From NCBI GenBank assembly GCA_947599905.1, contig CANQFR010000003.1:1-48097 (forward strand): DNA of 48,097 bases. Reading direction: 5' to 3'. Shown here in pieces: positions 27,861 to 48,097 of the stretch. The notes below the pieces were generated by a model. That model did not search any database. It saw only the letters and a list, made by a program, of their open reading frames with translations, and had not been told where the DNA came from. This DNA is from an uncultured Lachnospiraceae bacterium. Its GTDB lineage: Bacteria; Bacillota; Clostridia; Lachnospirales; Lachnospiraceae. Numbering within the stretch: position 1 is the stretch's first letter; every line of letters begins with the position of its first letter. Position numbers and translations under genes: made by a program.

Positions 27861-28988
27861 ATGGCTAATCTTCCATATTATGAGCAAAAGGATCGCGAAA
27901 ACACACTTCATCTGCGCGAAATGATGAAGGAACTGCCGTCCTTCTGCACCGATTTCTTTCGAGGGATTGAACCGCAAACCTCATCAAGAACCAGAATCGC
28001 CTACGCCTATGACCTGAAGGTGTTTTTTGAGTTTCTGCAGAAGGAAAATCCTGTCTTCGGCGCCCGGGATATCCGTGACATCAGCCTCGACGAACTTGAT
28101 CAGCTCCGGGCCGGCGACCTGGAGGAATACATGGAGTACCTGAAATACCGGTACAATGACAAAAACTTCGAGGTCGTCAACAAGGAACGCGGCATCATGC
28201 GGAAAGTATCGTCGCTAAAAAGCTTTTATAATTACTTTTACCGTCTGGAACGGCTGAAAAACAATCCGGCTGCCCTGATCAAGCTGCCCAAGCTTCATGA
28301 AAAAGAGATCATCCGCCTGGATATCGACGAAGTCGCCATGTTATTGGATACCGTGGAAAACGGTGATTCTCTGACAAAGAAACAGCGTGAATTCCACGAA
28401 AAAACGCAGGTACGCGATCTGGCTCTCCTGACGCTTCTTCTCGGTACGGGACTCCGCGTGTCCGAATGCGTCGGTCTGGATATCCAGGATGTCGACTTCA
28501 AGAACAGCGGGATCCGGATTCACCGCAAAGGCGGCAAAGAAGTGACCGTCTATTTCGGTGAGGAGGTGGAGGAAGCGCTGCTTGACTATCTCGAACAGCG
28601 CAGGCACATGATTCCGGCCGAGGGTCATGAAAACGCCCTCTTCCTCTCTCTTCAGATGAAACGAATCTCTGTGCGCAGCGTAGAGAATCTGGTTAAAAAA
28701 TACGCGAGAATCGTCACGCCGCTAAAAAAGATCACGCCGCACAAGCTTCGCAGCACCTACGGCACCACACTCTATCAGGAAACCGGTGATATCTACCTGG
28801 TCGCAGATGTCCTGGGACACTCGGATATCAATACGACCAAGAAACACTATGCAGCGCTTGACGAAGCCCGCAGACGCAGCGCCCGTGACAAAGTCCGTCT
28901 TCGTGAAGATTCGACACACGCGCAACAACAGCCATTACCGTACGAACCGTACGGGGCCGGGGCATCTGTCGAATCCGAGGGGCAGTGA
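27861..28988 (+). CDS. Xer-like tyrosine recombinase
   Basis: A 375-residue integrase-family protein. The N-terminal SAM-like DNA-binding domain covers about 25-140 and the catalytic domain about 150-345. The active-site set is complete: Arg199 (GLRVSE), a Lys near 223-226 in the beta-hairpin, His294 and Arg297 (HKLRS), His320 (GHSD) and Tyr330 (KKHY). It sits next to lexA, is not flanked by other mobile-element genes, and is probably a resident Xer paralogue rather than a phage integrase. AAAAGGAGG precedes the ATG. The C-terminal 35 residues are disordered. Confidence 0.9.
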   Translation: MANLPYYEQKDRENTLHLREMMKELPSFCTDFFRGIEPQTSSRTRIAYAYDLKVFFEFLQKENPVFGARDIRDISLDELDQLRAGDLEEYMEYLKYRYNDKNFEVVNKERGIMRKVSSLKSFYNYFYRLERLKNNPAALIKLPKLHEKEIIRLDIDEVAMLLDTVENGDSLTKKQREFHEKTQVRDLALLTLLLGTGLRVSECVGLDIQDVDFKNSGIRIHRKGGKEVTVYFGEEVEEALLDYLEQRRHMIPAEGHENALFLSLQMKRISVRSVENLVKKYARIVTPLKKITPHKLRSTYGTTLYQETGDIYLVADVLGHSDINTTKKHYAALDEARRRSARDKVRLREDSTHAQQQPLPYEPYGAGASVESEGQ

Positions 28989-41246: not shown

Positions 41247-42326
41247 TCAGGGTGTGCGCGGATAGAGGGAGCGGTCAAACGCAAAACAATTCCCGTGTTT
41301 TGCTGAATAGTCCTGCATCTGTGCATCCGTCCACAGGCAGAAATACCCGCCCGCCCGTCTCGGCGTCGCGTCGAAATGATACCAGTTGCCGTCGCTTAGC
41401 TGGACAAGATTCCAATAATGGCCGTTATCCGTATAACGGAGCATCTCGATGCACGGAATACCGCACCGCATCAGAAGCGCAGCCGATACGGAATAATAGA
41501 TGAAGCAGTCCCCATGACGTCTGCGGAATCCGTTATAGGCTTCCTGAACCCAGTCCCTTGTCGCCGCATGTCCGCTGTATGTAAAGTTCCCGCGGACCCA
41601 TGCATATATCGCCTCTGCTTTCTGCCGGTCCGTCATCGAGTCATTCACGATTCCAGCCAGAATGGTATCCGCCATTGCGGAAACGGTCTGCCACATCTCC
41701 TCTTGTTCCGGCGCTACCTGCGTAATCGGCTTATAGGGCCAGGCGGCCGCACCGGAACTGTCAAACGTGTAAGTGACGCCGCCGACCGTACGCTGCACAT
41801 CATGCGCCATCGCTCCGCTGACCTCATCCAGATAATAGACTTTTCCGTCAACCTCAAGCAGACCGGTCTTCATATATCCGGTCTCATCAAAATAATATGT
41901 CTCTCCGTTAATCTGTTTCCAGCCGTTCGTTACATAGCTGCCGTCGGCAAGACGGTAATACCAGCCCACACGATCCAGCAGCCAGCCGGTATAACTGTCC
42001 GAAAGCCTGTGCGCGGCGCCCGTTGAATCAAACTGCCAGACTCCACCGGCGATGGATGTGGTGCAGGCTGCGACCATGGTTCCGTCTTCCGGACGAAGAT
42101 AATAAATCGAGCCGTTATCCACCAGCCACTCGCGGTGCGCGTATCCGTCCGCATCAAAATAAAACCAGGGGCCGTTCGCCTCGTCCCAGTACCATCCGAT
42201 TACATCGTTTCCATTATCATCACGGCATCTGAGGCCGTTCTCATCGCTGTACAGGGTGTCCGCAAAAGATGAAATTCCAAATAAACATGAAAAAACAAAT
42301 AAAAGAAATGATAACCGTATTTTCAT
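41247..42326 (-). CDS. Secreted transglutaminase-like protein with cell-wall-binding repeats
   Basis: A 359-residue exported protein. A signal peptide (about 1-22, ending SSFA) is followed by glucan/choline-binding-type repeats at about 40-195 (GWYWDEANGPWFYFDADG, GWKQINGETYYFDETGYMKTG). The C-terminal transglutaminase-like domain has the triad Cys274 (HGDCF), His303 (GHYWNLV) and Asp319 (HFDATP). It may remodel or crosslink the wall, or act as a peptidase. It is the first gene of the seven-gene operon, 66 bases after the promoter minus-10. Confidence 0.88.
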   Translation of the reverse strand: MKIRLSFLLFVFSCLFGISSFADTLYSDENGLRCRDDNGNDVIGWYWDEANGPWFYFDADGYAHREWLVDNGSIYYLRPEDGTMVAACTTSIAGGVWQFDSTGAAHRLSDSYTGWLLDRVGWYYRLADGSYVTNGWKQINGETYYFDETGYMKTGLLEVDGKVYYLDEVSGAMAHDVQRTVGGVTYTFDSSGAAAWPYKPITQVAPEQEEMWQTVSAMADTILAGIVNDSMTDRQKAEAIYAWVRGNFTYSGHAATRDWVQEAYNGFRRRHGDCFIYYSVSAALLMRCGIPCIEMLRYTDNGHYWNLVQLSDGNWYHFDATPRRAGGYFCLWTDAQMQDYSAKHGNCFAFDRSLYPRTP

Positions 42327-43680: not shown

Positions 43681-44548
43681 TTTCCTCCCCCAGTTCATCA
43701 AGCGGCGCGAGCTTCCGGCCGGCGTCTTCTCCGGCCGTCACGTCCGCATAAACTTCTTCTCGTTCGGTCTGGAAGGCAAACGGCGGCAGTTCCCGAGCCA
43801 GATACGCATAGAATGCTTCCATGACAAGTTCCGGCTTGACGTTATCGGTACTGCCGGTGCAAACCTGCATGAAAACAGCGTCCGAAGGCTGATTCACCGC
43901 ACCAGAGACGATCACCGGAAGACTTCTTCCATCCGAGGCCGCTGCAGCGGAAAACCTCCGGTCTGCCCCGAAAACCGATGCCAGCTGCCGCCCGGAAACG
44001 CAGTTCGTTGTCGCCGTCTGACATTCCCCTGCAGGCTCGGCGCATACCCGCTCCAGCCGGTAAATGAGCGGCTTGAGATCCATTTCTTTCTCGCCGCTCT
44101 TGGTCTTCTTCGTAACCGGAATCTCCGGCTGAGCGTAGAATTCCGCGAGCGCCTGAAAGAATGCTTCCATATCTTCCGGCTCTTTCCCCGGGCGGAACGC
44201 CAGCAGGTAATCGGCCGCCGCCACAAGCGACATGGCGCTTCTGGCATCATCGGAGAGTTTTCGCCAGGAAAGAACCTCCGTGCCTTCCGACATCACCGCG
44301 TTCAGCCGGCGGACCATTTCCGCCGAACTGTCCGTCGAATTCACTTCAATGTCGAGATATTCGCCGTTGCTTAAAAGGCCGACGCCGAGGGGCGCGGCAA
44401 AGGACATGATCTGATGGGGGCTGAAACCGCCACTGTAGCAGATGTCAACCTCCGCCCTGCGCATGACCTTCTGGAAATACCGCATGATATCCAGATGTCC
44501 GATGAATTTCATGGCGCCCTGCTTGCGGAATTTAATTCTTATCTTCAA
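43673..44548 (-). CDS. TIGR03936-family radical SAM-associated protein (DUF2344)
   Basis: A 291-residue protein always found with the TIGR03960 radical SAM protein and RNase G in Clostridia. The N-terminus KIRIKFRKQGAMKFIGHLD and GGFSPHQIMSFAAPLG are typical. The biochemical role is not established; a link to rRNA or tRNA modification has been suggested by context. The start is TTG 44548 behind GGAGGAGG, overlapping the upstream gene by 17 bases. The track start at 44791 is antisense extension. Confidence 0.9.
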   Translation of the reverse strand: MKIRIKFRKQGAMKFIGHLDIMRYFQKVMRRAEVDICYSGGFSPHQIMSFAAPLGVGLLSNGEYLDIEVNSTDSSAEMVRRLNAVMSEGTEVLSWRKLSDDARSAMSLVAAADYLLAFRPGKEPEDMEAFFQALAEFYAQPEIPVTKKTKSGEKEMDLKPLIYRLERVCAEPAGECQTATTNCVSGRQLASVFGADRRFSAAAASDGRSLPVIVSGAVNQPSDAVFMQVCTGSTDNVKPELVMEAFYAYLARELPPFAFQTEREEVYADVTAGEDAGRKLAPLDELGEEIE

Positions 44549-46400
44549 AGCAGACACCTCCTCCGAATACCCGCGCGCCGCAGCCGGCGCAGCCCTGACG
44601 GCAGTTGGGCGTGACGGTCTCTTCCGTCGCCCTCTTCCATTCCCGTTGCAGGAATTCCTTCGTAACGCCGGCGTCAATGAAATCCCATGGCAGTTTCTCA
44701 TCCAGACTGCGGTCGCGGAACGTATAGAAATCCGGATCCACGCCGCAGGCGTCAAACGCCGCCATCCAGAGTTCATTGTCGAAATTCTCACCCCAGGAAT
44801 CGAACATGGCCCCGCGGCGGTAAGCTTCCTCGATTACCGGTGCGACACGGCGGTCGCCGCGCGCCAGCACGCCTTCCAGCACGCTCAAATCCGCCTCGTG
44901 GTAGTTGTATTTCAGGCTTTTCGCGTTCTTCATCTCCTTAAATGTGTCGCGCACCAGCCAGGCGCGGCGCAGGAATTCTTCCTTCGTACACTGCTTCGCC
45001 CACTGGAACGGCGTAAACGGCTTCGGAACGAAAAAGGAGGAGCTGGCGACGATCTGTACCCTGCCGGGCGCGCGGCTCTCCTTCGGCAGGTCATAGAACA
45101 GCTCCGCAATCTTCTCGGAAAGATACGGGATCCCCCGCATATCCTCTTCCGTCTCCGTCGGCAGTCCCAGCATGAAATACAGCTTCACGCGGTTCCAGCC
45201 GCCCAGGAACGCGTCGCGGGCGCCGCATAAGATATCCTCTTCGGTCAGTCCCTTATTAATCACGTCGCGCAGGCGCTGCGAACCGGCCTCCGGCGCGAAA
45301 GTCAGGCTGCTTTTTTTGACGTCCTGAACCCGGCTCATCACATCCAGCGAAAAGGCGTCGATGCGCAGGGACGGCAGGGAAATGTTGATGCCCTTGCCCT
45401 GCACCTCGTCAAGAAGAAAATGAATGAGTTCCGGCAGCTGCGAATAGTCGCTGGAGCTCAGCGAACTCAGCGAAATCTCCTCATGGCCGGTGCTCTTTAG
45501 CATCTTTGACGCGTAATGCTTCAGATATTCCAGGCTGTGCTCCCTGAGCGGCCGGTATATGGTTCCTGCCTGACAGAAGCGGCAGCCGCGGATACAGCCC
45601 CTCTGAATCTCCAGGACAACCCTGTCCTGCGTCACCTTGATAAACGGCACCAGCGGCTTTTCTATATACCAGGCGTCGTCCATATTCTTCACAAGTTCTT
45701 TCGTGACCTTATCCGGCGCACAGGGGTTATTGGGACGAAAATCAGCGATTGTTCCGTCCTCATGATAAGTCACGTCATAGAAAGCCGGCACATAGAGGCC
45801 GGGAATCTGCGCCGCCGTTTCCAGAAACTCTCTCCGGCTTCCTCCCCGGTTTTTATTGGCCTTATACGCGTCGAAAAGCTGCCCGTAGACCGTTTCCCCT
45901 TCCCCGATGTAGAAAATGTCAAAGAAAGGCGCCAGCGGCTCCGGATTATAGGCGCAGGGGCCGCCGCCGATGACGATCGGGTCGTCTTCGGTACGATCTG
46001 CGGCATGCATCGGAATGCGGCTCAGATCCAGAATCTGCAGCACATTGGTATAGCACATCTCATACTGGAGCGTGATGCCCAGGAAATCGAAATCCTTTAC
46101 CGGATCCTGTGACTCCAGCGCGAACAGCGGGATATTCTTCTCTCTCAGCAGCTTGTCCATATCGGTCCACGGCGAATAGACCCGCTCGCAGTAGACGTCG
46201 TCCCTTCCGTTGAACATATCGTAGAGGATCTGGATGCCCAGATGGGACATACCGATCTCGTAGACGTCCGGGAAACACATACAGAAACGGATGTCCATTT
46301 TCGTAGGGTCCTTAATTGCCATGTTTACCTCACCGCCGATATATCTGGCAGGCTGCTGGACAGACAACAAAATTTCGTCACTTAGTGCCAATCTTCTCAT
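44532..46400 (-). CDS. TIGR03960-family B12-binding radical SAM protein
   Basis: A 622-residue protein. The N-terminal B12-binding-like domain (about 35-200, with MSHLGIQILY and IVIGGGPCAYNPEP) is followed by a radical SAM domain whose iron-sulfur cysteines are Cys269, Cys273 and Cys276 (CIRGCRFC). The C-terminal CRQGCAGCGARVFGGGVC is a second Cys-rich element. The substrate is unknown. It heads the TIGR03960-TIGR03936-rng operon. The ATG at 46400 follows AGGAG. Confidence 0.93.
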   Translation of the reverse strand: MRRLALSDEILLSVQQPARYIGGEVNMAIKDPTKMDIRFCMCFPDVYEIGMSHLGIQILYDMFNGRDDVYCERVYSPWTDMDKLLREKNIPLFALESQDPVKDFDFLGITLQYEMCYTNVLQILDLSRIPMHAADRTEDDPIVIGGGPCAYNPEPLAPFFDIFYIGEGETVYGQLFDAYKANKNRGGSRREFLETAAQIPGLYVPAFYDVTYHEDGTIADFRPNNPCAPDKVTKELVKNMDDAWYIEKPLVPFIKVTQDRVVLEIQRGCIRGCRFCQAGTIYRPLREHSLEYLKHYASKMLKSTGHEEISLSSLSSSDYSQLPELIHFLLDEVQGKGINISLPSLRIDAFSLDVMSRVQDVKKSSLTFAPEAGSQRLRDVINKGLTEEDILCGARDAFLGGWNRVKLYFMLGLPTETEEDMRGIPYLSEKIAELFYDLPKESRAPGRVQIVASSSFFVPKPFTPFQWAKQCTKEEFLRRAWLVRDTFKEMKNAKSLKYNYHEADLSVLEGVLARGDRRVAPVIEEAYRRGAMFDSWGENFDNELWMAAFDACGVDPDFYTFRDRSLDEKLPWDFIDAGVTKEFLQREWKRATEETVTPNCRQGCAGCGARVFGGGVCFEDKN

Positions 46401-46619
46401 GTGAAACTCCTAATATTTTGTAAATCATTCATAATTTTTTGATCCCATCCGCAACTCGCATGAACAGTCCTATTTTCATATAAAAGTGTCCTTATTTGCA
46501 AATATCATCGTCCATTTTGACCGCTTTTTTTGACCATTTTTAAACAAAAACAACAAATTTCTTTTTTCTGACTATTCATAACATTTTAGCATTGTACAAC
46601 ACCAACCATACATATAGGA
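46401..46619. other. AT-rich gap between the TIGR03960 gene and the integrase; possible attachment region
   Basis: This 219-base stretch is clearly more AT-rich than its surroundings. It holds two TTTTGACC direct repeats 13 bases apart (46515-46522, 46528-46535) and an 8-bp inverted pair AGTCCTAT (46466-46473) / ATAGGACT (46614-46621), the latter reaching the integrase stop codon. It must also contain the minus-strand promoter of the TIGR03960 gene, but no strong one was recognised. An att site is plausible; the other junction is outside the window. Confidence 0.35.
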
Positions 46620-47972
46620 CTATTTAGTGCCTGTTCGCAGGGCGTTCATGAACGGACCGCAGACATCCTCGATCAGCCAATCCAGATTGAGATCAGACAC
46701 AATTTCTGTCTTCGGTACGATGTCATCGAGGAACCTGTAATATGCCTGAAACCCGTTGTTAATTATCTGGTTGCTGTCGACGTATACATTCTGCGTAAAG
46801 TCGCTTTCGTAATGACCCATTGCCTGCGAGAGCTCCTTGGGATTGATGTTGTTTTCGGTCATGACTGTTGCAAAGGAGTGACGAAGGTCATGCCAGTGAA
46901 GGTTAGGATCGAGTCCTAGTTTTGTTTTTAGGCGAGCAAACGGTTTCTTATAATCGCCGCGTCCGTGCGGGTCCCCGTTTTCCTGTGCCCAGATATAACC
47001 GTCGTCACAGGTACGGAGATCTCCACGCACTTTAGTTTTTCTGCGTTTCTTTGCCAGTATGATCTCGTCAAGCACGAACTGCGGCAGCAGGATCTTGCGG
47101 ATGGAGTGGTACGTTTTTGGCTTCAATACTTGTTTATATGCCTGATTCTCCGCAATACCGTCCGTTATCAGCGGCCTTCCGAGTTGCTCTGTGATCGAGA
47201 GTGTTCCGGTCCGAAAGTCGACGGAAGAAAATTTTAATGCCCTTAACTCGCTTACCCGACAGCCTGTACTGAGTGTGATGGAGAGCGGCAGAAAAAAATC
47301 CGGCTCCGACATCTTGCATTCGATCAGCAGCTTCTGAATCTGAAATGAATCAATGACCGGGCGTTTACAGTCGATCGGCGGTGTCCCTGCGGCCCGTTGT
47401 GCCAGGATCTTCCGGCTCTGTCTGATTGCCTTCTCCCCCACATTTACGTGTACGAGGTTCATCTGCTTGGCGCATTTGTACGAACTGCCGATCACGGATG
47501 CCGCCAGTTTATACAGTGATGGAGACGGCATATTAACGAGCAGTTCGGTCAGCGTTTCGCGCCGAAGCGACATAAGCTTTTTATTTCCGTACGCGGGTAT
47601 GATATACTTGTCAATAATATTCCGGTAGCTGAAGAAAGTGTTGTAACTGATCTGTTTCTGGTCGATCATATAATAATACAGCCAATAGTCGTAAAACTCC
47701 CGGACTTTTACCTCAAAGAACACGAACTGATGGTTGCTCATTTGACTGATCGCCACTTCTTTGGCGTCCAGGCATTCCTTTTTGGTGCAGAAACCGCCTT
47801 TTTCTTTCTGGACAATGCTCCCGTCTTCAAATTCCACCCGAAAACGGAACAAGTATTTACCGCGGACATAAGTCGCTGTTCCCAGGAACTGCCACCGCTG
47901 GATTTCTCCCTTGAAGAAACAGGGATTGACCGGCGGTTTGACGATGTCTTTCCTTTGCCTCATGTGGTTCAC
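46620..47972 (-). CDS. Tyrosine recombinase (integrase) of a probable mobile element
   Basis: A 450-residue phage/ICE-type integrase. The N-terminus has an AP2-like arm-binding segment (YVRGKYLFRFRVEFEDG), then a SAM-like core-binding domain (about 88-175) and the catalytic domain with Arg239 (GCRVSELR), His361-x2-Arg364 (HDLRHSFAT), His387 (GHYES) and Tyr397 (QNVYVD). The start is GTG 47972, sharing 4 bases with the stop of another recombinase gene; ATG 47963 is an alternative. Codon and base use look more AT-rich than in neighbouring housekeeping genes (impression only). Confidence 0.9.
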   Translation of the reverse strand: MNHMRQRKDIVKPPVNPCFFKGEIQRWQFLGTATYVRGKYLFRFRVEFEDGSIVQKEKGGFCTKKECLDAKEVAISQMSNHQFVFFEVKVREFYDYWLYYYMIDQKQISYNTFFSYRNIIDKYIIPAYGNKKLMSLRRETLTELLVNMPSPSLYKLAASVIGSSYKCAKQMNLVHVNVGEKAIRQSRKILAQRAAGTPPIDCKRPVIDSFQIQKLLIECKMSEPDFFLPLSITLSTGCRVSELRALKFSSVDFRTGTLSITEQLGRPLITDGIAENQAYKQVLKPKTYHSIRKILLPQFVLDEIILAKKRRKTKVRGDLRTCDDGYIWAQENGDPHGRGDYKKPFARLKTKLGLDPNLHWHDLRHSFATVMTENNINPKELSQAMGHYESDFTQNVYVDSNQIINNGFQAYYRFLDDIVPKTEIVSDLNLDWLIEDVCGPFMNALRTGTK

Positions 47973-48097
47973 CCGGCCTTTTCGCGTACGTATGTATCCG
48001 GTAGCGGGTCGATACGGCGTTCGCTCGTACGGCGGATATTATCACCGGATTCCAACGCATGTACATAGATATCGTAGGTTGTGCTGATGTTCTCGTG
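47969..48097 (-). CDS. C-terminal end of a second tyrosine recombinase, cut by the window edge
   Basis: The minus-strand frame entering at 48097 reads HENISTTYDIYVHALESGD and stops at TGA 47971-47969. HENISTT.DIYVH is the C-terminal signature of tyrosine integrases, with the likely nucleophile Tyr in DIYVH. Too short for the ORF track. The downstream recombinase starts in the same four bases, so the two genes are translationally coupled. Confidence 0.8.
   Translation of the reverse strand, partial: HENISTTYDIYVHALESGDNIRRTSERRIDPLPDTYVREKAG

Follow-up and report, generated by a model that had tools for sequence, protein, structure and literature searches.

A conserved radical SAM gene of a Lachnospiraceae bacterium with a start apparently supplied by an integrative element encoding two tyrosine recombinases

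Insertion into the 5' end of a conserved gene has been described for islands and prophages that integrate in dusA, where the start of the gene is replaced by element-borne sequence, the native start is stranded at the far end, and the direct repeats are imperfect (PMC4482086). SXT/R391 ICEs, which also form tandem arrays, have their insertion site at the 5' end of prfC (PMC2791158). A second point of comparison is provided by elements with more than one adjacent tyrosine recombinase gene. In the accessible portions of the sources, Tn554 and the SE elements are described as combining one ordinary and one large recombinase with TnpC/Srap (PMC10214605), and RIT elements as having three recombinases with short gene overlaps (PMC3414803, PMC10214605); a rebuilt target gene is not described there for any of them.

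We analyzed a window of 48,097 nucleotides, the whole stretch of DNA under study, which is the entire contig C3 of an uncultured Lachnospiraceae genome available as a fragmented, metagenome-type assembly (276 contigs, 88.7% complete). The segment from position 46264 to the contig end is very probably the right end of a 5'-end-replacing element, for which we propose joint action of the recombinases Int1 and Int2 and an excisionase of the HTH_17 type. The features of this region are as follows.

44532..46263, minus strand: host-derived remainder of the TIGR03960 B12-binding radical SAM gene (TIGR03960, 1034 bits; 86% DNA identity to the other carrier genome)
46264..46271, minus strand: crossover core CCGGACGT, right junction, attR (divergence directly after the core in contig C135 of the same genome, in contig C55 of the second carrier and at two Blautia junctions)
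46264..46400, minus strand: element-borne replacement 5' end of the TIGR03960 gene, codons 1 to ~45 (132/135 bases identical to the other carrier)
46401..46619, minus strand: AT-rich leader inside the element, with an AGGAG ribosome-binding site (composition; 98.8% identical in the second carrier, gene start included)
46620..47972, minus strand: int2, second recombinase, complete (PF00589/PF14659/PF14657; alignment; 99% identical copy at the same site in locus L037 of the second carrier)
47969..48097, minus strand: int1, first recombinase, last 42 codons and stop, remainder past the contig end (frame, GTGA overlap, L037 copy)

The initial annotation placed the edge of an integrated element at the AT-rich gap upstream of the TIGR03960 gene. 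A DNA search of the same genome revealed a second, partial match to the TIGR03960 start at the end of contig C135, where pepT is followed by the native TIGR03960 start, the core CCGGACGT and then foreign DNA reading GTATGAGATAAGGGCAAAATT and a stop codon. The window has this core at 46264-46271, followed there by the remainder of an intact TIGR03960 gene (full frame 44532-46400, 622 aa). The second carrier, a 'Lapin' metagenome assembly of Lachnospiraceae, has the left junction in its contig C55, as on C135, and the right junction in its contig C20. It follows that the TIGR03960 gene of the window begins with the start carried by the element, and that the native start of the host has been left at the element's opposite end. 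The edge was thus confirmed by the other end on C135, by an empty site in relatives and by a second carrier genome, but its position was shifted: the crossover falls within the TIGR03960 gene, ~130 bp from its start, and the gap is element DNA. The leader is 70% A+T compared to 47% in the window; a consensus promoter scan identified no promoter around it, and Rfam identified no RNA in the end region. The replacement start is identical to the native start on C135 at only 105/135 positions, and the 30 differing bases change 26 codons, 21 of them silently, a bias that fits a sequence selected as protein.

The core is also present in the empty sites L051, L052 and L057. The last of these belongs to a near-identical strain (G262), which matches the left flank at 99.6% over 1,646 bp and the right flank at 97.3% over 2,942 bp, the change from one flank to the other falling at the core. 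The refuting outcome named in the initial annotation, the same two genes in all relatives with no boundary, was not observed: relatives in which pepT adjoins TIGR03960 lack the recombinases. The two carriers are 98.6% identical over the 1,834 bp up to the core, 86% identical in the rest of the TIGR03960 gene and 77-81% identical in the host DNA beyond; therefore, the element and its gene start have moved between hosts. The left ends of the element match at 200/206 bases. In the second carrier, contigs C55 and C20 share an exact 77-bp overlap at their ends, giving 32,144 bp from core to core; this size of ~32 kb was obtained by joining contigs at their overlap and not from a single continuous molecule.

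The arrangement could in principle be an artefact of assembly or binning, with C135 and C3 derived from different strains and a chimeric junction between them. The assembly is of a fragmented type with contig breaks inside the element, and the second carrier genome also contains a further complete TIGR03960 copy. However, the same left and right junctions are found in that independent genome, with the matching left ends noted above, and cultured isolates of Coprococcus comes and Blautia caecimuris show the arrangement as well, which makes an artefact extremely improbable. We also regard as unlikely, with somewhat more hesitation, that an element of this kind persists in the genome studied here as a dead or immobile relic. 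The interior of the element is missing from its bin, where a search with L037:1-10060 identified no further long stretch of it; decayed relatives are present in the genus (L068, L071); and element-like leaders without recombinases occur at L055, L058 and L059. The latter may mark past occupancy or the lineage that gave the element its sequence. In contrast, Int2 is intact, and the element end is 98.6% identical between carriers whose host DNA differs by 14-23%, which points to recent transfer. A join of the end of C3 to contigs C55 or C240 of its own genome was rejected, both being halves of an unrelated integrase (C240 with tpiA and pgk), and the integrase fragment on C195 of that genome showed no link to the element.

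A further trace was observed at the empty site of G114 (L052), where pepT adjoins a mosaic gene start: its first 50 bases are of native type (48/50 to C135) and the next 85 of element type (81/85 to the window), a pattern of the kind that homologous recombination between these two starts leaves behind.

The reading frames and Pfam matches upheld the initial description of a complete integrase gene overlapping a second tyrosine recombinase gene by 4 bp. The int2 frame (450 aa, GTG start) matches Phage_integrase PF00589 (70 bits) as well as SAM-like and arm-binding domains (PF14659/PF14657), and the alignment revealed its R-HxxR-H-Y catalytic residues. The int1 frame, cut by the contig end, terminates in HENISTTYDIYVHALESGDNIRRTSERRIDPLPDTYVREKAG*, with GTGA common to the int1 end and the int2 start. 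In L037, int1 is complete (L037:8739-10004, 421 aa, PF00589), its C-terminus is identical to that in the window, and it overlaps by the same 4 bp an Int2 of 450 aa that is 99% identical to ours and lies at the same place. Directly upstream of int1, modules of both target groups described below carry a gene for a small HTH_17 protein, which scored above the Pfam cut-off in three modules; a Xis-like small HTH gene beside the integrase, one of the features by which ICEs and IMEs are recognized, is therefore present. The nearest solved structures of both recombinases are those of the Tn1549-type Int (6emy/6emz/6en0), although Tn1549 uses one Int, unlike the pair in the window. Elsewhere in the window, a separate 375-aa tyrosine recombinase (27861-28988, plus strand), followed by a LexA-like gene, is probably a chromosomal Xer-type enzyme.

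The initial annotation proposed that the pair marks the edge of a Tn554-like or RIT element that had inserted in the intergenic gap. In favour of this are the adjacency of the two recombinase genes and their overlap, since RIT genes overlap as well, by 4-8 bp (PMC3414803). However, the gene make-up did not bear this proposal out. Both recombinases are of ordinary size (421 and 450 aa), the third gene encodes a small HTH_17 protein in place of TnpC/Srap, and no third recombinase is found beside the complete L037 pair, which is flanked by the HTH_17 gene and the target gene. Moreover, the boundary lies inside a gene and not in the gap. We consequently give this reading almost no credence. Apart from adjacent recombinase genes and their short overlap, the window element differs from Tn554 and SE elements, with their oversized recombinase and TnpC/Srap, and from RITs with their three recombinases.

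Like the dusA islands, the window element inserts in the 5' coding end of a conserved gene (core ~45 codons in), supplies the new start and leaves the native one at its other end, as observed in C135/C55 versus the window and C20. Unlike them, it targets TIGR03960 and its sister clade uvrB; the dusA islands use dusA, one integrase and 21-bp semiconserved repeats in Proteobacteria. With SXT/R391 it shares site-specific 5'-end insertion in a conserved gene and tandem arrays (see below), but those ICEs rely on a single Int with Xis, carry conjugation genes and have another target and other hosts.

Relatives of the HTH_17/Int1/Int2 module upstream of TIGR03960 span several Lachnospiraceae genera, cultured isolates included; the closer Int2 relatives at this position are from G111, two Lachnospiraceae MAGs, Coprococcus comes, G257, G057 and G228. 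Since the same pair recurs at the TIGR03960 site in other genera, the association is not due to chance. Among 250 family genomes (almost one per genus), 18 Int2 matches were obtained in 17 genomes, the source genome aside: 3 at TIGR03960, 14 upstream of uvrB (two of these with another gene between) and 1 cut by a contig end. Within this uvrB clade, the sequences of two genera are identical over an 801-base stretch that extends from int2 into uvrB, after which identity falls to ~75%; at a third junction uvrB is truncated at the same point. By these junctions, the sister clade targets uvrB as the TIGR03960 clade does its own gene. In the tree, the Int1s form one fully supported clade that is split by target, and the Int2s fall into a TIGR03960 group with weaker support and a well-supported uvrB clade. 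A search of 391 genomes drawn from the class yielded only one match past the strict cut-off, from another family and with a different neighbour. At locus L119 (G438), from another family of the class, a recombinase pair was observed with neither TIGR03960 nor uvrB recognized downstream and with an AAA-ATPase/PD-(D/E)XK protein ~2 kb away.

Blautia caecimuris presents a more complex arrangement. Its element end carries codons 1-49 only and runs straight into other DNA, a second contig has the native start followed by foreign DNA, and a third has a complete gene; both breaks fall directly after CCGGACGT. The most plausible reading of these junctions is a tandem arrangement of two or more elements. 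Similarly, G159 has two recombinase pairs at uvrB (L036 and L027), one of them followed by a truncated uvrB start, an arrangement that by its junctions would be a tandem array like that of Blautia. The tandem junctions show the expected attP form. The int1 copy of B. caecimuris at L038:9430-10639 is split in two frames (136 and 275 aa) and may be inactive.

Pfam matches among 30 element ORFs included an NAD-dependent DNA ligase, a separate BRCT protein, RecJ, a DNA-methylase-like protein, an R2K ATP-grasp protein, a choline-binding protein and IscB. No relaxase, conjugation or virion structural genes were detected by Pfam among these 30 ORFs, and two large proteins match no family. These are proteins of 676 aa (L079:6361-8388, minus strand) and 871 aa (L079:3752-6364, minus strand) in the second carrier, without matches in Pfam, PHROGs or NCBIfam, and are candidates for replication or transfer functions. 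The element is not a recognizable temperate phage: structural genes are lacking among its ORFs, and the phage records matched only a distant integrase (top ~25%). Searches of phage, plasmid and IMG/VR collections likewise retrieved distant integrases only, with weak IMG/VR relatives. The RNA-guided IscB nuclease is encoded in the second carrier's element at L079:8644-10092 (minus strand; NCBIfam guided_IscB, 293 bits, cut-off 175), and the contig segment bearing it contains no guide-RNA family at the Rfam threshold. The choline-binding-repeat protein lies at L080:9676-10797 (plus strand), and a protein with cell-wall-binding-type repeats is encoded in the window at 41247-42326 (minus strand).

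XerCD is the model of two recombinases acting on one core; it resolves chromosome dimers, and the analogy drawn here is mechanistic. In the reading favoured here, the element recombined at CCGGACGT, ~45 codons into the host TIGR03960 gene. The junction sequences show that it supplies a leader and alternative first ~45 codons, which give a full-length frame, and that the native 5' end lies displaced on the element's far side. In the proposed mechanism, Int1 and Int2 would act together, probably each on one half of an asymmetric core in the manner of XerC and XerD. The HTH_17 protein, whose gene lies directly upstream of int1, may act as the excisionase, excision would produce a circle with an attP containing the spare gene start, and the leader may provide expression signals for the gene. 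Since the spare start copies that of the target with its coding content conserved, integration would spare the conserved gene and elements could stack in tandem.

An appreciable but smaller chance remains that the element is as described and only one recombinase performs strand exchange, the other being an accessory DNA-binding or directionality factor. Most integrative elements have a single Int and a small Xis (PMC10214605). However, catalytic R, R, H and Y are kept in both recombinases (HxxR included; one His is replaced in some Int2s), and the pair stayed together through the target switch, which leads us to treat this alternative as doubtful.

Replacement of a gene 5' end is already known, whereas the paired-recombinase module with its two targets was not found described: the open-access literature yielded neither TIGR03960 nor uvrB as a tyrosine-recombinase target nor, judged by title, such a module, nor any Lachnospiraceae integrative mobilizable elements. 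Whether HTH_17-Int1-Int2 represents an undescribed integration class, defined by two recombinases at one site, a matched spare start and a target switch with the pair kept, is in our judgment an evenly balanced question. In the Lachnospiraceae of the gut, a recurrent family of elements swaps the starts of conserved genes and leaves the gene unbroken, so that a core gene comes to be partly of horizontal origin. Recombinase pairs with switched site specificity offer a natural set in which to study target choice by a two-recombinase system, and integration tools for bacteria that are hard to engineer might be developed from them.
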